Positions 4,583 to 59,420 of a stretch of 64,000 bases of DNA are shown here, piece by piece. Positions within the stretch are counted from its first letter, which is position 1; the number at the start of each line of letters is the position of its first letter. The stretch is taken from the NCBI RefSeq assembly GCF_024704725.1, contig NZ_JALIQS010000002.1:806001-870000 (forward strand), written 5' to 3'. The notes under the pieces are model-generated. The model did not search any database and was not told where the DNA came from. It was given only the letters and a program-made list of their open reading frames with translations. This DNA is from Shinella sp. CPCC 101442. GTDB taxonomy: Bacteria > Pseudomonadota > Alphaproteobacteria > Rhizobiales > Rhizobiaceae. The position numbers were made by a program, and so were the translations under genes.

Positions 4583-5686
4583 TCAGGCCTCGATCTGCAC
4601 GTCCCCGACCGGCCGCGAGCAGCAGGCAAGGATGTAGCCCTCTGCGATCTCGTCATCGAGAATGCCGCCGTTGTGATGCATCTCCACTTCGCCCGAGACC
4701 TTCATGACCCGGCACGTGCCGCAGAGACCGCCTTCGCAGGCCGCACCGATGCGCACCCCGGCGGCGCGGGCCGTCTGCAGGATCGTCTGGCCGGGCGGGC
4801 ATTGGCCATCCTTGCCGGCCATGGTGAAGGTCACGGTCGAAACGGCGTTGGCATCGATCTCCTGCTCGCCGGCGCCGGCCCGGATGGCGATCTCCTCCGG
4901 CGCGGGCGCAGCGGCCGGCTGGAAGCTCTCCTCATGGTAGCGGTCCATATTGAAGCCGCAGACCTTCAGCATGTCTCTGACGCCGCGCATGAAGGGTTCG
5001 GGACCGCAGCAGAAGACGGTCCGGTCCCGGAAATCCGGCGCGAGCAGCGAGAGGCGGGCGGCATCGATGCGGCCGCGCAAACCGTGCCAGCCGTCGCGCG
5101 GATTGTGTCCCTCCACGACGAAGCCGAGCGCGAGGTTCGGCATCTGGGCGGCGAGACATTCGAGTTCCGGCTTGAACAGCAGATCCTCGGGCTTGCGGGC
5201 GCAGGAGACGAAGGCGACGTTGGATTGCGGCGCGCAATCGGCCATCCAGCGCGTCATCGACATCATCGGCGTGACGCCGGAACCCGCCGAGATGAACAGG
5301 TATTTCTCCGCGGGATAGCGAACGAAGGAGAAATCACCGAGCGGGCCGAAGGCCTTCAGTTTCATGCCGGGGCGCAGGTTGTCGAACATCCAGCGCGTGC
5401 CGATCGAATTCTTCTGCGCCTTCACCGTCACCGCAACAGAGAACGGCCGCGAGGGCGTCGAGGACAGCGTGTAGGTGCGCATGACAGGCTCGTCTTCCGA
5501 CACCGGCAGTTCCAGCGTGACGAACTGGCCCGGCAGATACCGGAACCAGTTTTTCTGATCGGAGCTGAAGGTGAAGGTCATCACGTCAGCGGTTTCCACG
5601 GTGACGGCGATGCATTCGAGCAGGTTGTGCCGGTCGTGCCACGGATGAAGTTCGTCGAAATGATGGAAATGGCTCGAAATGGTCAT
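4583..5686 (-). CDS. gbcB: glycine betaine monooxygenase reductase subunit (GbcB-like)
   Basis: A 367-residue NAD(P)H:ferredoxin-type reductase. An FAD domain (about 20-125, with RTYTLSSTP) is followed by an NAD-binding domain (SAGSGVTPMMSM, later FCCGPEPFM) and a C-terminal plant-type 2Fe-2S domain with C317, C322, C325 and C355. It passes electrons from NAD(P)H to the Rieske oxygenase encoded just upstream. ATG at 5686 lies one base past the gbcA stop codon, so the two are translationally coupled. The pairing with a GbcA-like Rieske protein supports betaine (or proline betaine) demethylation rather than a hybrid-cluster reductase role. Confidence 0.9.
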   Translation of the reverse strand: MTISSHFHHFDELHPWHDRHNLLECIAVTVETADVMTFTFSSDQKNWFRYLPGQFVTLELPVSEDEPVMRTYTLSSTPSRPFSVAVTVKAQKNSIGTRWMFDNLRPGMKLKAFGPLGDFSFVRYPAEKYLFISAGSGVTPMMSMTRWMADCAPQSNVAFVSCARKPEDLLFKPELECLAAQMPNLALGFVVEGHNPRDGWHGLRGRIDAARLSLLAPDFRDRTVFCCGPEPFMRGVRDMLKVCGFNMDRYHEESFQPAAAPAPEEIAIRAGAGEQEIDANAVSTVTFTMAGKDGQCPPGQTILQTARAAGVRIGAACEGGLCGTCRVMKVSGEVEMHHNGGILDDEIAEGYILACCSRPVGDVQIEA

Positions 5687-5687
5687 G

Positions 5688-6932
5688 TCAGGCCACCCGC
5701 GACAGCGGCGCCTTGGCGCCATCGAGCCGGTCGATCATGAAATTCGAATACCATTCGACGAACTGCATGACGCCACCCTCGTCCTCCGGCGAATAGGGGC
5801 CGGGCTGGTAGGCCGGCGAGCGAATGCCGAAGGCGTTTTCCTCGACGATCTGGCGATCCTGGTCGTTGGTCTCGGTCCAGACATGGGTGAGCTCGTCAAG
5901 CCGGTAATCGACACCCTCGACGGCATCCTTGTTGACCAGCCACTTGGTCGTGACCTGCGTCAGTTCCGGCCCGAGCGGCAGCACGCGGAAGGTGATCGCG
6001 TGGTCGGCCAGCACATGGTTCCACGTCGTCGGGTAGTGGAAGAGCAGCAGCGTGCCGATATGGCTTTCCAGCACGTCGTTCGACAGCGGGCGTGCGACGG
6101 CGCGCGCGCCGGACATGGTGTAGCTCTCGGCATCCTGGATGAGCGGCATGCGGGCGGCGCGAAACTGACCGGTCGGCGAGATCCTGAATTCGCTCGGCAG
6201 GCCCGCTGCCTCGCACTTCGCCCAGTGCGCGGCAATGACCGGATCGTCCTTGGCGCCCTGCACGCCGGTGGCGCTTGGCGCTTCCGGATAGGTGCGGCAG
6301 AGCTCGGGGTGATTGGCGGCGCAGTGGTAGCACTCGCGGTTGTTTTCCCAGACGAGCTTCCAGTTGCCCTTCTCGATGATCGTGCTTTCGAAGGCGATCT
6401 TCGTCTCGCCGAGGCGGTGGCGGGCGAGATAGGGTTCGGCGGTGGCGCGGAAGGTGGAAAAATCCGGTGCCTGGTCGGCCAGGCAGATAAAGATATAGCC
6501 GCCCACCGTCTCGCAGTGGATCGGCTTCAGGCTATGCTGCGTCTTGTCGAAATCCTCGGCCATGTGGCGGGCGAAGAGCAGCGATCCATCAAGTTCGTAG
6601 GTCCACTGGTGATAGGGACAGACGAGCTTGGCCGACGTGCCCTTGTGCTGGGTGCAGACGCGCGATCCGCGGTGACGGCAGGAATTGTGCAGCGCACGAA
6701 CGGTGCCGGTGCGGTCGCGGGTGATGACGACGGGATAATCGCCGACCTGCACCGTGAAATAGTTGCCGGCCCTCGGGATTTCGCAATCATGGCCGATGAA
6801 CAGCCAGTCGCGATACCAGATCGTCTCCATGTCGAGCTTGTAATGGTCGGGGTCGATGTAGAAGGCCTGTTCGAGGCTGTGGCCTTCACGCCGGTTCTTG
6901 AGCTTGCGGAGCACGTCGCTGCGGATATCCAT
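5688..6932 (-). CDS. gbcA: glycine betaine monooxygenase oxygenase subunit (GbcA-like Rieske protein)
   Basis: A 414-residue Rieske non-heme iron oxygenase. The Rieske cluster ligands are C85, H87, C105 and H108 (CRHRGS, CPYHQW), and the mononuclear iron histidines are H203 and H208 in NNRECYHCAANHPE. The block HRGSRVC...LVCPYHQWTYELDG closely matches what I remember of Pseudomonas GbcA. GbcA converts glycine betaine plus O2 to dimethylglycine and formaldehyde, with electrons from GbcB; a related stachydrine (proline betaine) demethylase cannot be excluded. Two in-frame ATGs exist (6944, 6932). AGGA lies between them, 5 bases before 6932, so 6932 is chosen. The leader carries a cobalamin riboswitch. 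Confidence 0.88.
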   Translation of the reverse strand: MDIRSDVLRKLKNRREGHSLEQAFYIDPDHYKLDMETIWYRDWLFIGHDCEIPRAGNYFTVQVGDYPVVITRDRTGTVRALHNSCRHRGSRVCTQHKGTSAKLVCPYHQWTYELDGSLLFARHMAEDFDKTQHSLKPIHCETVGGYIFICLADQAPDFSTFRATAEPYLARHRLGETKIAFESTIIEKGNWKLVWENNRECYHCAANHPELCRTYPEAPSATGVQGAKDDPVIAAHWAKCEAAGLPSEFRISPTGQFRAARMPLIQDAESYTMSGARAVARPLSNDVLESHIGTLLLFHYPTTWNHVLADHAITFRVLPLGPELTQVTTKWLVNKDAVEGVDYRLDELTHVWTETNDQDRQIVEENAFGIRSPAYQPGPYSPEDEGGVMQFVEWYSNFMIDRLDGAKAPLSRVA

Positions 6933-7051
6933 GGCAATCCTCATAGGTCCAGTTTTGGGATGAGGCGCACGGAGGAGACGGCATCCGGGCGGCAGACCGC
7001 ACGGCGTGCACGCTTCCCGGCCGCCCGCCGCAGCCAGTCACGATCTTCTCT

Positions 7052-7232
7052 CCAGGCTGGTTTCCGGGCTGAGGAGTGGTCTTTGCAGGACAAGCCCTGC
7101 GACCTATGCGGCGCCTTCCCAGACAATCCGTCCAGTGGCTTTGTGCCGCGTTATCTCCAACACCGTTGCGGGGGCAGCGCCGGATTTAAACCGGCTTCCC
7201 AATTCTCCGCCCTCCCTTGAAGGCGGCACCTC
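7052..7232 (-). promoter_or_regulatory. cobalamin (B12) riboswitch in the gbcAB leader
   Basis: Read on the minus strand, all conserved blocks of the class I cobalamin aptamer occur in order: GGTGCC (7230 leftward), GGGAAGCCGGTTTAAATCC and GCTGCCCCCGCAAC (the central core), AAGCCACTGG (the B12 box, 7132-7141), GGGAAGGC (7113-7120) and AGCCCGGAAACCAGCC (about 7055-7070). A stem with GCAGGG/CCTGC lies between the last two. The aptamer ends about 120 bases before the gbcA start. The linker contains a GC-rich stem (CGGGCGGC with GCCGCCCG) that may be the expression platform; it has no U tract, so control of translation is more likely than termination. No other gene lies between, so gbcAB is the apparent target. 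Confidence 0.95.
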
Positions 7233-7560
7233 GAGTGTCTTTATCTAAACGCAAGAATCGCTGCTCGACATGCCGGAAAACGACATGACTTCATGATTTG
7301 GCGACAATCCAAAAATGAGATCGAGGCGCCGAGATTCTGAATTTATCACGACATATCAATATACTGCGCCTCGAAATCGAGCACGATGGCGCAACAGGAG
7401 GCAACGCGGCCAGCAAACAGGCAAGTTGTCATATTGCGACCATGAAAATCACACTGCGAGGAATGGGGGCCTGAACGGAAAGGAATGCTTAACGGCGTTT
7501 CCATAAACTTCTGCGATCAGGGCGCGAGCGCATAGCGCCGCGCGAGCATGGGGTACCGGC
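7233..7560. other. non-coding region upstream of the riboswitch
   Basis: About 330 bases between the riboswitch (transcribed leftward) and the next gene (transcribed rightward). It is more A+T-rich than its surroundings and must hold both divergent promoters. I see no convincing coding frame, repeat or conserved RNA in it, and no promoter strong enough to place. Confidence 0.6.
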
Positions 7561-10414: not shown

Positions 10415-10428
10415 CATTGGAGACGACC

Positions 10429-11859
10429 ATGGTTGCGGCACCGCTTTCCTCCGAGCTCATCGCGCGCTTCGCCGCGATCACGGGTCCGGCCCATGCGCTC
10501 GTCGAGGACAAGGACATCGCGCCCTATCTCGTCGAGAGCCGCGGGCTTTACCACGGCACCTCGCCGCTGGTGCTGCGTCCGGGCTCCGTCGCGGAGGTCT
10601 CGGCCATTCTGGCGCTGGCGACGGAAAGGCGCACCGCCATCGTGCCGCAGGGCGGCAATACCGGCCATGTCGGCGGCAGCGTGCCGCGCGAGGGAGCGGC
10701 GGATGTCGTGCTCTCGCTGTCCCGCCTCAACCGCATCCGCGACGTCGATCCGGTCGGCAATGTCATCGTCGCCGATGGCGGCACGGTGCTGGCGGACATC
10801 CAGAAGGCGGCGGAGGATGTCGACCGGCTTTTCCCCCTGTCGCTCGGCTCGGAAGGCTCCTGCCAGATCGGCGGCAACCTCTCCACCAATGCCGGCGGCA
10901 CCGCGGTGCTCGCCTATGGCAACATGCGCCAGCTCTGCCTCGGCCTTGAAGTCGTGCTGCCGACGGGCGAAGTGTGGAACGGCCTGCGTCGCCTCAGGAA
11001 GGACAATACGGGTTATGATCTGCGCGATCTCTTCATCGGTGCGGAAGGCTCGCTCGGCGTCATCACCGGGGCGGTGCTAAAGCTTTTCCCCCGCCCGCTC
11101 GGCCACGAGGTCGCCTTTGCGGGCCTCAGATCCGTAAAGGATGCGCTGACCCTCTTCGAGCGCGCTGCCAGCCGCTGCGGCCCGGCGCTCACCGGCTTCG
11201 AACTGATGCCGCGCCTCGGTGTCGATTTCACCACCCGGCACATTCCCGGCGTGCGCGATCCGCTGGCGACGCGCCATGACTGGTACGTGCTGATCGATAT
11301 CTCGACATCGGATGCCGCCGATACGGCCGGCCGGATGATGGAAGCGCTGCTCTCCGAAAGCATCGAGGCCGGGCTCGTGGAAAACGCCGTCATCGCGTCG
11401 AACGAGGATCAGCGCAAGGCGCTGTGGCATATGCGCGAAAGCATGTCGCCGGCACAGAAGCCGGAAGGCGGCTCGATCAAGCACGACGTTTCCGTGCCGG
11501 TCTCGTCCATTCCCGATTTCATGGCGGAAGCCGATGCGGCCGTCATGGCGGCGATCCCCGGCGCGCGCATCTGCTCGTTCGGCCATATGGGCGACGGCAA
11601 TATCCACTACAATATCTCGCAGCCGGTCGGCGCTGACAAGCAGGCCTTCCTCGACCGCTGGCGGGAGATCAACCACCTCGTGCATGGCATCGTGCTGAAC
11701 TACAACGGCTCGATTTCGGCCGAGCACGGCATCGGCCAGCTGAAGCGCGACGAACTGGCGGCCGTGCGCACGCCGATCGAGATGGACCTGATGTATCGGG
11801 TCAAACGCGCCTTCGACCCGGCCGGCATCATGAACCCCGGCAAGGTCGTCGCGATCTGA
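10429..11859 (+). CDS. FAD-binding 2-hydroxyacid dehydrogenase (D-2-hydroxyglutarate/D-lactate type)
   Basis: A 476-residue flavoprotein of the GlcD/LdhD/D2HGDH family. The FAD PP-loop is PQGGNTGHVGGSVP, followed by GSEGSCQIGGNLSTNAGG and KDNTGYDLRDLFIGAEGSLGVIT. The C-terminal half has the metal/substrate motif GHMGDGNIHYNIS and the final AEHGIGQLKRD...DPAGIMNPGKV. It oxidises a D-2-hydroxy acid to the 2-oxo acid; the D-2-hydroxyglutarate-like C-terminal domain is the best match but the substrate is not certain. ATG at 10429 has GGAG 7 bases upstream; a TTG 12 bases earlier is less likely. It follows tsaC closely and is convergent with the DUF1217 gene (3-base gap). Confidence 0.9.
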   Translation: MVAAPLSSELIARFAAITGPAHALVEDKDIAPYLVESRGLYHGTSPLVLRPGSVAEVSAILALATERRTAIVPQGGNTGHVGGSVPREGAADVVLSLSRLNRIRDVDPVGNVIVADGGTVLADIQKAAEDVDRLFPLSLGSEGSCQIGGNLSTNAGGTAVLAYGNMRQLCLGLEVVLPTGEVWNGLRRLRKDNTGYDLRDLFIGAEGSLGVITGAVLKLFPRPLGHEVAFAGLRSVKDALTLFERAASRCGPALTGFELMPRLGVDFTTRHIPGVRDPLATRHDWYVLIDISTSDAADTAGRMMEALLSESIEAGLVENAVIASNEDQRKALWHMRESMSPAQKPEGGSIKHDVSVPVSSIPDFMAEADAAVMAAIPGARICSFGHMGDGNIHYNISQPVGADKQAFLDRWREINHLVHGIVLNYNGSISAEHGIGQLKRDELAAVRTPIEMDLMYRVKRAFDPAGIMNPGKVVAI

Positions 11860-14184: not shown

Positions 14185-14470
14185 CGGAGGCACTCTTCCT
14201 TCGGGTCACACGTAGGCCGATTGGAAGCCATTTTCGCGCGCGAGGCTTGTCCCGGCCTGTCCGGCCGACACGTCAAATGCTTCGAGCGATGTTCACCTCT
14301 CCTAAACCCTAGCCCGTGCGGTTTTGCTAACCATCAGGAACTGCAAAGTTTTCTTAACCGCAATTTTTAAGCGGCGAGGAAGGGGCAGCACCTATTCTCG
14401 CCCTCAGAGGACGAAAAGTCCCGATGAGAAGACCGCACAGCGGCTCTCAAGGAAAACAAGGGCGAAAGAC

Positions 14471-15034
14471 ATGCTGAATACCGTTTCCAAGCCGGCATGG
14501 GCCGGCACCACGCTCCGGCTCGATCCCAAGCGCTTCCCGCAGGCGGTGACTTTCGAGCTGCGCAGCGAGGGAACCGATGCCACCATCACCCTCGACGAGC
14601 GCGGCGCGGTCCTGCGCAAGGTCCTGCCGTCGAGCGGCCTGCCGCTCTCCATCGCGCTGCCGGCCCGTGCCTTCAAGGGTGTCGCTGCCCGCGCCATCGA
14701 TCATGGCAACGGCGACGTGACCGTGACGCTGGAACTGCACCATGACGACCCGGGCCTCTGCATCCCGTTGCTCGTGGCGCATGATCTCTGCGACATCGCC
14801 GCGGACTGGCGCAGCTGGGCGGAAGCCTACCGCATTCCCATGCTGATGGTGGAAGCCGATGGCGTCGCCCGCCCGCTCGACGACCACCTGAGCGGCACGA
14901 ACCGGCCCGCCAAGCCGCGCCGCCGCCACTCCTATTTTGCAGATCGCCGCCCGCGCTTCCTCGTGCGCCGCACGACAGGCAAGCTCGGCGTGCAGATGAA
15001 GATCGACGGCCGGGAGATCATCGCCAGGCGTTGA
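14471..15034 (+). CDS. conserved hypothetical protein (possibly DUF6101 family)
   Basis: A 187-residue soluble protein starting MLNTVSKPAWAGTTLRLDP. It has an N-terminal beta-rich part (VTFELRSEGTDATITLDERGAVLRK, and LSIALPARAFKGVAARAI), a middle part with VTVTLELHHDDPGLCIPLLVAHDLCDIAADWRSWAEAY, and a basic tail (RRHSYFADRRPRFLVRRTTGKLG). It resembles proteins I recall as DUF6101 in rhizobia, but that is from memory. No catalytic motif is recognisable. It is monocistronic: a strong terminator follows at 15151. Confidence 0.75.
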   Translation: MLNTVSKPAWAGTTLRLDPKRFPQAVTFELRSEGTDATITLDERGAVLRKVLPSSGLPLSIALPARAFKGVAARAIDHGNGDVTVTLELHHDDPGLCIPLLVAHDLCDIAADWRSWAEAYRIPMLMVEADGVARPLDDHLSGTNRPAKPRRRHSYFADRRPRFLVRRTTGKLGVQMKIDGREIIARR

Positions 15035-15150
15035 ACATGCGATGACGACATGAGCCCGTAGGGCGTCCGCGCTTTCCTCCAGTCGCGCCGATGCCCTGTC
15101 CCCTTGGCCGTTCCGTGCGCGACCGCCTCGCGCTTCAGGAACTGCCCCAA

Positions 15151-15180
15151 AGCCGGCCGTCCCCTGCGGCCGGCTTTTTT
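15151..15180 (+). terminator. rho-independent terminator
   Basis: Perfect stem AGCCGGCCG/CGGCCGGCT with a 7-base loop followed by six T residues. It ends the transcript of the gene at 14471-15034, about 115 bases after its stop codon. Confidence 0.92.
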
Positions 15181-15282
15181 CGTGCCCTGTTCCCTCCGGA
15201 ACACTTTCGCCGCGCCCGGCGTGGGAAAGAGCGTTCAACACGAGCGGCCGAAGCCGCAGCGAACGCAAGGGACACGACGACA

Positions 15283-15453
15283 ATGGCAAAGCTCTTCACC
15301 ACCCTCCTTGTCCAGATCCGCAAGGCCGACGCGGCGCTGATCGAGCGCGGTCGCCCGCCGCGCCGCGGTTTCGAACTGGCGATGCACCCCGCCACGCTCC
15401 GGCGTGCCGAAGAGCGGCCGGCCACCGGCGCACGCTCGCCGCGCTACCGGTAG
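15283..15453 (+). CDS. small basic hypothetical protein
   Basis: A possible 56-residue protein starting MAKLFTTLLVQIRKADAALIERG and ending in an Arg/Pro-rich tail. AAGGGA lies about 10 bases before the ATG. It sits between the terminator at 15151 and cfa, in the same direction as cfa. The N-terminal amphipathic helix and basic tail are plausible for a small DNA- or membrane-associated protein, but nothing identifies a function and such a short frame in GC-rich DNA could be chance. Confidence 0.4.
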   Translation: MAKLFTTLLVQIRKADAALIERGRPPRRGFELAMHPATLRRAEERPATGARSPRYR

Positions 15454-56869: not shown

Positions 56870-58411
56870 TCAGTACCAGGCGTCGGCCATGGTGGCCTTC
56901 TTGCGCTCCATGTAGTCGCACAGCGCCTCGTCGACGGCGATGTCGAGCGGCGGTGCCTCATACTCGGCGAGCGTCTTCTTCCATTGGCGGTTGGCGCGCG
57001 TCGCGATATCCGTCGAGCCGCCCTCCTGGCTCCATTTCTCGAAGGGCTCGTTATCCGACAGCGTCGAATCCCAGAAGGCCGTCTGGTAGTTGCGCATCGT
57101 ATGATCGCAGCCGAGGAAATGGCTGCCCGGACCGACCTGCAGGAAGGCGTCCATGGCGAGGGTGTTGTCATCGACAACCACGCCCGCGAGATAGGAGTGC
57201 AGCGCGCCGCAGAGATCCGCGTCCATGACGAATTTCTCGTAGGACATGGCAAGCAGGCCGTCGAGAAAACCGGCGGAATGCAGGATGAAGTTCGCCCCGC
57301 AATGCACGGCCGACAGCATGGACATCAGCCCTTCCTGCATCGCCTGCCCGTCCGGCAGCTTCGAATTCGAGAAATTTCCCGCGCAGCGCAACGGAAGCTT
57401 CAGGCGCCGCGCCAGCTGACCGACGACCATGGAACCGATGGCCGGTTCCGGCGTGCCGAAAGTCGGCGAGCCCGAGCGCAGCGACATGGAGGACAGGAAG
57501 TTGCCGAAAATGACCGGCGCGCCCTTGCGCTCCAGCTGCGTCAGCGCGCAACCGGCCAGCGTTTCGGCGAAGGACTGGGCAATGGCGCCGGCATTCGTCA
57601 CCGGCCCCATCGCGCCGCCGAGAATGAAGGGCACGATGACGGCGGCCTGGTTGGCGCGGGCATAGGCACGCAGCGACTTGGTCATCGTGCCGTCCCAGAC
57701 GAGCGGCGAGTTGACGTTGACATTACCGAGGATGACGCAGTTCTTGTCGACGAAATCGGCGCCGAACAGGATGCGCGCCATGTCGATGGAATCCTCCGCG
57801 CGATCTTCCGCCGTGATCGAGCCCATGAAGGCGCGGTCGGAATATTTCATATGGCTGTAGACCATATCGAGGTGGCGCTTGTTGACGGGGATGTCGACCG
57901 GCTCGCAGATCGTGCCGCCGGAATGGTGCAGCCAGGGGCTCGACTGGGCGAGCTTGATGAAATTCCTGAAATCCTCGAGCGAGCCATAGCGCCGCCCCTT
58001 GTCCAGATCCATCACGAAAGGCGAGCCATAGGCCGGCGAGAAGACGACGTTCCTGCCGCCTATCTGCACGTTATTGGCGGGGTTGCGGGCATGTTGCGTG
58101 AACTCGGCCGGCGCGGAGGAGACGATCTCGCGCAGCATGCCGGGTTCGAAGCGCACCAGCAGGCCTTCCACCTTGGCGCCCGCGCGCTTCCAGTGATCGA
58201 GTACTGCGGGATCGTCGCGGAACTCGATACCGACTTCCGCCAGGATGCGGTCGGCCGCACGCTCGACTTTCTGGAGGTTTTCCTCCGACAGCACGTCATA
58301 GGTCGGGATGCCGCGCACGATATAGGGCACGCCAAGCGGCTTTGCGGCATTGTCACGCCGCGTGCCCCTGCCCCGCCGTGCCGGCGCTTCGATCGTTGCT
58401 GCTACACCCAT
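56870..58411 (-). CDS. trimethylamine methyltransferase (MttB) family protein, non-pyrrolysine
   Basis: A 513-residue member of the MttB superfamily. It reads through without an in-frame amber codon, so it is a non-pyrrolysine type like MtgB (glycine betaine:corrinoid methyltransferase). Recognisable regions: LGVPYIVRGIPTYDVLSEENLQKVERAADRILAEVGIEF, GGRNVVFSPAYGSPFVMDLDKGRR, TGAIAQSFAETLAGCALTQL-like sequence and HSAGFLDGLLAMSYEKFVMDADLCGAL. The substrate is probably a quaternary amine, but no corrinoid protein gene is nearby. ATG at 58411 has GGAGG 5 bases upstream; an ATG at 58423 contains that site and is rejected. Divergent from a LysR gene. Confidence 0.9.
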   Translation of the reverse strand: MGVAATIEAPARRGRGTRRDNAAKPLGVPYIVRGIPTYDVLSEENLQKVERAADRILAEVGIEFRDDPAVLDHWKRAGAKVEGLLVRFEPGMLREIVSSAPAEFTQHARNPANNVQIGGRNVVFSPAYGSPFVMDLDKGRRYGSLEDFRNFIKLAQSSPWLHHSGGTICEPVDIPVNKRHLDMVYSHMKYSDRAFMGSITAEDRAEDSIDMARILFGADFVDKNCVILGNVNVNSPLVWDGTMTKSLRAYARANQAAVIVPFILGGAMGPVTNAGAIAQSFAETLAGCALTQLERKGAPVIFGNFLSSMSLRSGSPTFGTPEPAIGSMVVGQLARRLKLPLRCAGNFSNSKLPDGQAMQEGLMSMLSAVHCGANFILHSAGFLDGLLAMSYEKFVMDADLCGALHSYLAGVVVDDNTLAMDAFLQVGPGSHFLGCDHTMRNYQTAFWDSTLSDNEPFEKWSQEGGSTDIATRANRQWKKTLAEYEAPPLDIAVDEALCDYMERKKATMADAWY

Positions 58412-58499
58412 GCTCACCTCCATAATTGGAGATGAGGCTAGGCGTGAAAAAGCCCGCTGTAACGCTGGAAAAATTTATTCGACACTATAATCTCAATTT

Positions 58500-59420
58500 A
58501 TGGAAACCCTGCGCCGCCTACTCCCTTCCGCCTCCAGCCTCATCATCTTCGAGGCTGCCGGGCGGCACCAGAATTTCACCCGCGCCGCCCAGGAGCTTGG
58601 CATGACGCAGGCGGCCGTCTCCTATTCGGTGCGCAATCTGGAGGAACAGCTCGGTGTGGCGCTCTTCCACCGCATCCATCGCGCCGTGGAACTGACCGAT
58701 GCGGGCGAACGCTTCCATGCGGATGTGACGCTCGGCCTGTCGCGCATCCAGAAATCGGCGGAGGATATCCGGGCCAAGGGCCGCGAGGCGAATGTCACAC
58801 TGTCGGCCTCCACCGCCTTCGCCTCGATGTGGATGCTGCCGCGGCTCGCCAAGCTTCGCGCCGACCTGCCGGATATCGACCTGCGCATCCAGACCAGCGT
58901 GCGCGATCTCGATCTCGACGAAGAGACGATCCCGCTCGGCATCCGCGGCGGCGACCCGGCGAAGTGGCCGCGCTACCATGCGGCATTGCTCGCACCGGAG
59001 GTCGTCACCGCCGTCGCAAGCCCCGCCTTCGTGGAAAGCCGCGGGCATCCGAAGACGCCGGAAGAGCTTCTGAAACTGCCGCTCATCCATCTGGAAGAGC
59101 CGGTGCGCGCGGCCTGCGACTGGCCGGAATGGTTTGCCAGCGCCGGCGTGCGCTATCCCGCGCAGGCGCGGCGGCTCGCCATCAACGACTATGTGCTCGT
59201 CATTCAGGCGGTGCTGGCGGGAGAAGGTGTCGCGCTCGGCTGGCGCCACCTCATCGAGGGACAGGTGCGCTCGGGCGCACTCGTTCCTGTCGGCGGCCAT
59301 TCGCTGGAACTCGACGAAGGCTTCTACGTCGTCTGGCCGCGCTCGCGCGAACTCAACGGCCCGGCGCGCCGCGTGCGCGACTGGCTGGTGGAGGAAGGGC
59401 GGCTCAGCCGGGAGGTCTGA
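58500..59420 (+). CDS. LysR family transcriptional regulator (GcvA-like)
   Basis: A 306-residue LysR protein: winged HTH (LIIFEAAGRHQNFTRAAQELGMTQAAVSYSVRNLEEQLGVALFHR, about 17-62) and a periplasmic-binding-fold effector domain. The layout resembles GcvA-type regulators. It is divergent from the MttB-family gene by 88 bases and probably controls it. No Shine-Dalgarno site precedes the ATG, but TATAAT at 58486-58491 lies 8 bases before it, so the mRNA may be leaderless. Confidence 0.93.
   Translation: METLRRLLPSASSLIIFEAAGRHQNFTRAAQELGMTQAAVSYSVRNLEEQLGVALFHRIHRAVELTDAGERFHADVTLGLSRIQKSAEDIRAKGREANVTLSASTAFASMWMLPRLAKLRADLPDIDLRIQTSVRDLDLDEETIPLGIRGGDPAKWPRYHAALLAPEVVTAVASPAFVESRGHPKTPEELLKLPLIHLEEPVRAACDWPEWFASAGVRYPAQARRLAINDYVLVIQAVLAGEGVALGWRHLIEGQVRSGALVPVGGHSLELDEGFYVVWPRSRELNGPARRVRDWLVEEGRLSREV

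Follow-up and report, generated by a model that had tools for sequence, protein, structure and literature searches.

Repression of B12-independent isozymes by B12, acting through cobalamin riboswitches, is described in passages of two earlier papers (PMC545781, PMC3766115). The riboswitches of metE and of the class I/III ribonucleotide reductases belong to the same RNA family (RF00174) as the one analysed here and, on our best reading, follow the same logic. Unlike in those cases, the target belongs to catabolism, being a Rieske demethylase pair, and its B12-dependent partner would be a multi-part Mtg/MttB methyltransferase rather than a single isozyme. The closest described enzymes on the oxygenase side are GbcAB and Stc2, which have the same architecture of Rieske oxygenase plus reductase. 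On the corrinoid side, a paper of 2025 described a B12-dependent glycine betaine route of aerobic bacteria; it ties the mtg gene set to demethylation of glycine betaine in Ruegeria pomeroyi and reports that in S. meliloti these genes are colocalized with the cob operon (PMC12478193). MtgBCDE transfers the methyl group to folate with B12, whereas GbcAB would remove it with O2; the two systems are not homologous and are expected to produce the same net demethylation. The word riboswitch occurs in the text of that paper solely in a reference title.

A cobalamin riboswitch before S. meliloti smc00982 was included in Rfam-based lists of 2007–2008 (PMC2245857, PMC2573895), and the gene is called a likely dioxygenase in a passage of a further paper (PMC2848018). 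The passages of those lists give a location only, with nothing seen in them that would tie the gene to betaine, Mtg or isozyme control. Gene order and the riboswitch found in the L009 locus indicate that smc00982 is probably the orthologue of the gbcA-like gene described below, with its riboswitch in the orthologous position. The first-pass annotation of this DNA had remarked that riboswitch control of an oxygenolytic betaine demethylase would be new. This stands in that no link between a B12 riboswitch and a betaine demethylase was found in the literature searched (sparse in subscription papers, so that an earlier mention may exist), while the riboswitch position itself was already in print. 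A survey of B12 regulation published in J Biol Chem in 2003 reportedly names a dioxygenase-like B12-regulated gene, ardX; the name frdX, considered along with ardX, was met with in an unrelated, ferredoxin use. The locus thus apparently joins a known RNA and a known logic to a new target class.

The window, meaning the whole stretch of 64,000 nucleotides of Shinella sp. CPCC 101442 that was analysed, contains what is, by score and conservation, a complete cobalamin riboswitch before genes for a Rieske demethylase and its reductase (Table 1). The RF00174 model was covered from 1 to 189 of 189 (E 8.5e-27; gathering score 31.5), in agreement with the earlier claim of a complete aptamer on the minus strand, and no other Rfam match in the 64 kb passed its gathering score. 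Its score and conserved position rule out a chance match. The first-pass annotation had given the span as 6932–7232, which takes in the leader and most of the aptamer and falls 16 bases short of the aptamer's 5' end; it had rightly seen no gene between aptamer and gbcA, although the spacer from the aptamer end to the ATG (6932–6930) is 105 nt and not 120. A terminator or separate promoter in this interval, named there as grounds against control, was not detected: a simple scan of 6900–7560, blind to other promoter types, showed neither a sigma-70-like promoter nor a terminator-like site on the minus strand.

Table 1. Positions of the genes and RNA elements discussed, numbered within the window
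Feature	Positions	Strand	Basis
gbcB-like gene, FAD/NAD and 2Fe-2S ferredoxin-type reductase	4583..5686	(-)	NCBIfam GbcB
gbcA-like gene, Rieske oxygenase alpha subunit, 414 aa	5688..6932	(-)	PF00355, PF00848 and NCBIfam
ATGAGG with likely gbcA ribosome-binding site	6939..6944	(-)	position ahead of ATG 6932-6930
CCTCAT, possible anti-ribosome-site segment	6960..6965	(-)	paired with 6944-6939 in minimum-energy fold
Hairpin GGCTGC-GGCGG-GCGGCC	7019..7035	(-)	directly 3' of aptamer; covarying pairs, alignment A1 columns 249-263
Cobalamin riboswitch aptamer RF00174	7038..7248	(-)	Rfam 110.4 bits; compensated pair changes in 21 leaders
GCCACTG core motif	7133..7139	(-)	CCACTG invariant in 21 leaders, leading G variable
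C-rich loop CCCCCG	7169..7174	(-)	invariant columns in alignment; complementary to downstream G-rich loop
MttB-family corrinoid-dependent methyltransferase gene	56870..58423	(-)	PF06253 766.5 bits at G000:C2:862888-864375

Compensated changes were present in 21 of the 51 predicted consensus pairs in an alignment of 21 leaders from two orders. We take the GCCACTG core to be the B12 box, while the CCCCCG loop is presumably L5 and the hairpin behind the aptamer presumably P13-L13-like. This hairpin covaries across the 21 leaders, with its GGYGG loop mostly kept. Contact between L5 and L13 is known for cobalamin riboswitches, and a similar pairing could form here between the G-rich hairpin loop and the C-rich loop, which is invariant. 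Nearer the start codon, the window leader folded with the CCUCAU-AUGAGG pairing was no more stable than shuffled sequences (z -0.39). In a ribosome-site duplex test on 66 leaders, based on mononucleotide shuffles and with L069 and L089 left out, the mean z was -1.0 and 18 of the 66 were at p 0.05 or less; the window leader showed no excess pairing (z +0.39). Given these weak pairing statistics, control of gbcA at the level of translation is put no higher than plausible.

The gbcB-like ATG at 5686 lies one base after the gbcA stop. Family searches were made with a longer reading of the gbcA-like protein, from 6944 (418 aa), and with the same frame of the gbcB-like protein from 5707. The oxygenase scored 512.4 bits on the NCBIfam GbcA model (NF058607; cut-off 670) and the adjacent reductase 383.5 bits on GbcB (cut-off 500), so that the window pair falls under both cut-offs and plain GbcA identity was dropped. 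Canonical GbcA elsewhere in the order was dropped as well, with none of 199 genomes above the NF058607 cut-off. The Stc2-type protein of S. meliloti GR4 scored 496 bits on the same model, near the value of the gbcA-like protein. The nearest solved structures were 3n0q (a putative hydroxylating dioxygenase), 3vca and 4qup; the last, deposited as 'Monoxygenase; demethylase', is 97.7 % identical to the S. meliloti GR4 protein, which has a neighbour annotated as Stc4, stachydrine N-demethylase reductase. In a protein tree reconstructed by a quick method, the gbcA-like protein fell outside the clade of 4QUP/Stc2, and Stc2 membership was also dropped. No riboswitch was found upstream of the Stc2 clade rows examined (L113, L114, L121, L122, L124 and L152), unlike in the window. 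Pfam domains (Rieske and ring-hydroxylating), structural relatives and the GbcA and GbcB scores assign the protein, at the level of sequence, to the quaternary-amine demethylases of GbcA/Stc2 type. The name gbcA given in the first-pass annotation is therefore right as to type and not settled as to the family proper.

Gene neighbourhood in relatives makes glycine betaine the likely substrate. In one genome of the order (L159), riboswitch and gbcAB stand head to head with mtgC-DUF1638-mtgD and a RACo-type corrinoid activator gene, the mtgC start being ~0.6 kb from the gbcA start; the gbcA riboswitch there scored 100.6 bits with Rfam (as L146), and mtgE-like, dimethylglycine-dehydrogenase-like (by similarity alone) and MttB genes lie ~16–22 kb away. 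In L161, a dimethylglycine-dehydrogenase-like and an MttB gene come after riboswitch-gbcAB, and in Cereibacter azotoformans gbcAB adjoins metH. In the window's own genome gbcAB is unlinked to the mtg cluster. A substrate other than glycine betaine is a tentative alternative to which we give distinctly less weight: a quaternary or tertiary amine (stachydrine, hydroxyproline betaine or a trigonelline-like compound), demethylation of which would be balanced against the MttB of that compound and not against MtgB. It would agree with the Stc2-like score on the GbcA model, with 3n0q and Stc2 as nearest solved relatives and with the several MttB paralogues per genome (four here, up to 12 elsewhere), but the gene lies outside the Stc2 clade, whose rows are without the riboswitch, and the neighbours in relatives include the dimethylglycine-dehydrogenase-like genes and the mtg set. 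As a separate observation, an FAD-binding oxidoreductase gene at 10417–11859 (+) of the window occupies, judging from gene order, the place of S. meliloti SMc00985, to which a further paper (PMC9997740) gives the name PdxR and a role in vitamin B6 synthesis in place of PdxB.

Conservation of the pairing was surveyed in two samples. Among the named genomes, the best 80 of 587 relatives were kept (75–96 % identical), and Rfam placed a riboswitch directly upstream of the gene, on the coding strand, in 67 of these 80 Rhizobiaceae-type loci. Scores were 77–117 bits in 63 of the 67 and 56–61 bits in the other four, which form one clade. No riboswitch was detected upstream in 12 of the 79 testable loci of this best-80 sample, L079 having been left out of the riboswitch tests for its 41 nt of upstream sequence. 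The orthologues of S. meliloti Ak57 and Shinella sp. PSBB067 are also preceded by a riboswitch. The wider sample was drawn from 297 genomes of the order, of which 37 matched at 1e-120; the 29 best-scoring loci were kept together with the window's own. With the 63 strong riboswitch sequences and that of the window made into a profile HMM, a riboswitch was detected in 16 of these 29, and Rfam agreed with the HMM in all 13 loci tried (nine with, four without). Riboswitches were present in three of 16 plasmid loci (L109–L124), all from Rhodobacterales (C. azotoformans, Gemmobacter fulvus and Phaeobacter gallaeciensis). The synteny of riboswitch and gbcA that the first-pass annotation had proposed to look for in rhizobia is thus widespread among these best-scoring relatives.

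Where the riboswitch is missing, its surroundings are mostly retained. A DUF6656 gene stands upstream, as in the window, in ten of the 12 riboswitch-less named loci (best 80 of 587); in L083 it is on the other side, and L039 has none in the stretch examined. A riboswitch fragment of ~50 nt remains in L087 and L090. Other RF00174 copies were found in all 15 genomes searched (the 12 without a gbcA riboswitch and three of the weak clade). Genomes in which the gbcA riboswitch is absent or weak were also searched for CobN, which was present in 20 of 21; the one without it is a 3.4 Mb MAG. Loss of the riboswitch is therefore local and mostly in place. These losses and remnants, along with the weak ribosome-site pairing in the window, could be expected of a decaying riboswitch with little effect on gbcAB, a neutral leftover. 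This is very unlikely, because pairing in both aptamer and hairpin has been kept by compensated changes across two orders and 63 of the 67 positive loci among the best 80 retain strong scores. Two further observations were made in this survey. The four genomes of the weak clade (L059, L060, L063 and L076) have an altered leader, with the conserved post-aptamer loop motif absent in three, and no MttB was found in them. In L144, a second, divergent riboswitch (136 bits; 813–1017, (-)) lies opposite that of gbcA, with a frame of ~100 aa after it.

The same genome provides a precedent for the arrangement. RF00174 matches numbered eight in 6.1 Mb, with the gbcA aptamer included. One precedes metE (NCBIfam PRK05222, 1157.8 bits) and another the class Ib reductase set nrdHIE, in which NrdH and NrdI were named by reading of the ORFs and the NrdE frame gave a partial match only to the NrdJ model (218 bits). 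Further riboswitches precede a Peripla_BP_2 protein gene, a nitroreductase-family gene (BluB by reading) and cbtA. B12-dependent MetH and NrdJ are both encoded as well, so two B12-independent isozymes, metE and nrdHIE, are already behind B12 riboswitches in this genome.

Several riboswitch-associated frames were seen alongside. On the L020 stretch of the window's genome, a B12 riboswitch (5555–5771, (-)) is followed by a 72-aa ORF and then metH, with ~360 nt between riboswitch and metH. In L069 a second riboswitch (882–1083, (-)) is followed by a frame with a stretch similar to this ORF; the two may belong to a small family of proteins under riboswitch control. The window's genome also has, behind metE, a riboswitch close to the gbcA type (L018, 18182–18351, (+)), and directly next to it a fragment resembling glutathione-independent formaldehyde dehydrogenase by reading; in L110 and L123 an annotated fdhA comes after gbcAB. 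L018 also contains a second Rieske oxygenase (14213–15442, (+); C1:1076k), which is 36 % identical to that of the window and scored 273 bits on the GbcA model. This paralogue was dropped as a target of the metE riboswitch, since the gene stands just before the riboswitch and not behind it.

A B12-dependent counterpart is also present in the genome, in the form of the mtg genes and four MttB genes. One MttB gene belongs to the set mtgB-mtgC-DUF1638-metF2-mtgD, which encodes corrinoid, DUF1638, MetF-like and pterin-binding proteins. The MttB gene of the window, one of the four, is a possible B12-dependent counterpart of GbcAB; a LysR-type-like regulator gene (by reading) is divergent from it at 58500–59420 (+). 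MttB was counted in all 80 named genomes (best 80 of 587) and the 29 best-scoring outer ones; with the window's own genome added and L079 removed, the comparison covered 109 genomes. Riboswitch and MttB were both present in 80 of these and both absent in 17, with MttB only in eight and the riboswitch only in four. MtgC was searched in 60 genomes, comprising the window's own, 23 of the 29 outer and 36 of the 80 named (all 12 without a riboswitch, four weak and 20 others picked by hand). Here 37 had both and 15 neither, with four cases of MtgC only (L081, L085, L103 and L143) and four of the riboswitch only. The genomes with a riboswitch and neither MtgC nor MttB are the four of the low-scoring clade.

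Since relatives are not independent, pairs were counted on a quick gene (protein) tree. Seven MtgC pairs fell on well-supported branches, with 5.8 on average changing in the same way and none in the other (median p 0.031, range 0.016–0.125). For MttB, 4.8 changed in the same way and none in the other (median p 0.0625, range 0.016–0.5). The window clade alone gave six pairs, with a median p of 0.0625 for MtgC and 0.125 for MttB. The raw association is strong and that on the tree borderline, with exceptions both ways; this is supportive, though short of conclusive, of the riboswitch being kept with the corrinoid system.

These data also bear on a supply model, in which low B12 would switch on betaine demethylation in order to feed glycine and methyl groups (S-adenosylmethionine) into cobalamin synthesis. 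The genome makes B12 (CobN), cob-linked genes are under the same riboswitch class, and betaine is named as a B12 precursor or feed in passages of the fermentation literature (e.g. PMC9699165). The CobN counts indicate, however, that B12 makers lose the gbcA riboswitch freely; its presence tracks MttB and MtgC instead, and the local character of the losses argues against a simple role in supply for B12 synthesis. The oxygenase would also be expected to yield formaldehyde, not methyl-folate, as is known for its Rieske relatives. We regard this model as unlikely.

We favour, with a probability of roughly 70 %, the reading that the leader switches GbcAB, as a B12-independent demethylation isozyme, OFF in response to B12. 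Read directly from the genomes are the aptamer, the hairpin with its covariation, the conservation of the position, the joint occurrence with MttB and MtgC and the linkage in some genomes; what we infer is which ligand is sensed, that the switch is OFF, that it acts on translation and that Mtg/MttB and GbcAB share a substrate, with the chemistry taken from named relatives. When B12 is plentiful, the aptamer would close and the downstream hairpin dock, hiding the gbcA ribosome site so that GbcAB is absent; betaines would then be demethylated by corrinoid-dependent MtgB/MttB with MtgC and MtgD, and the methyl group passed to folate and methionine. Under B12 shortage, the corrinoid enzymes would fail, the leader would open and GbcAB would be produced, removing the methyl group with O2 and releasing formaldehyde. 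The tendency of the riboswitch to co-occur with the B12-dependent machine suggests that the O2 route is probably off when B12 is plentiful. The first-pass annotation had proposed that GbcAB serves as a B12-free route when B12 is scarce; if repression is assumed, this fits the Mtg and MttB genes of the genome, the co-occurrence in 109 genomes and the gene cluster in L159.

Somewhat less firmly, we consider it probable that Alphaproteobacteria choose in this way between corrinoid methyl transfer with B12 and O2-driven Rieske demethylation of betaine without it. If this is true, osmolyte catabolism would form a third branch of the B12 economy, beside methionine and deoxyribonucleotide synthesis, that is kept or lost along with the corrinoid system. 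Betaines are major osmolytes of plants, soil and the sea. If the oxygenase is under a B12 switch, one could predict the route in use where B12 is scarce, and vitamin supply would be linked to the flux of carbon, nitrogen and formaldehyde.
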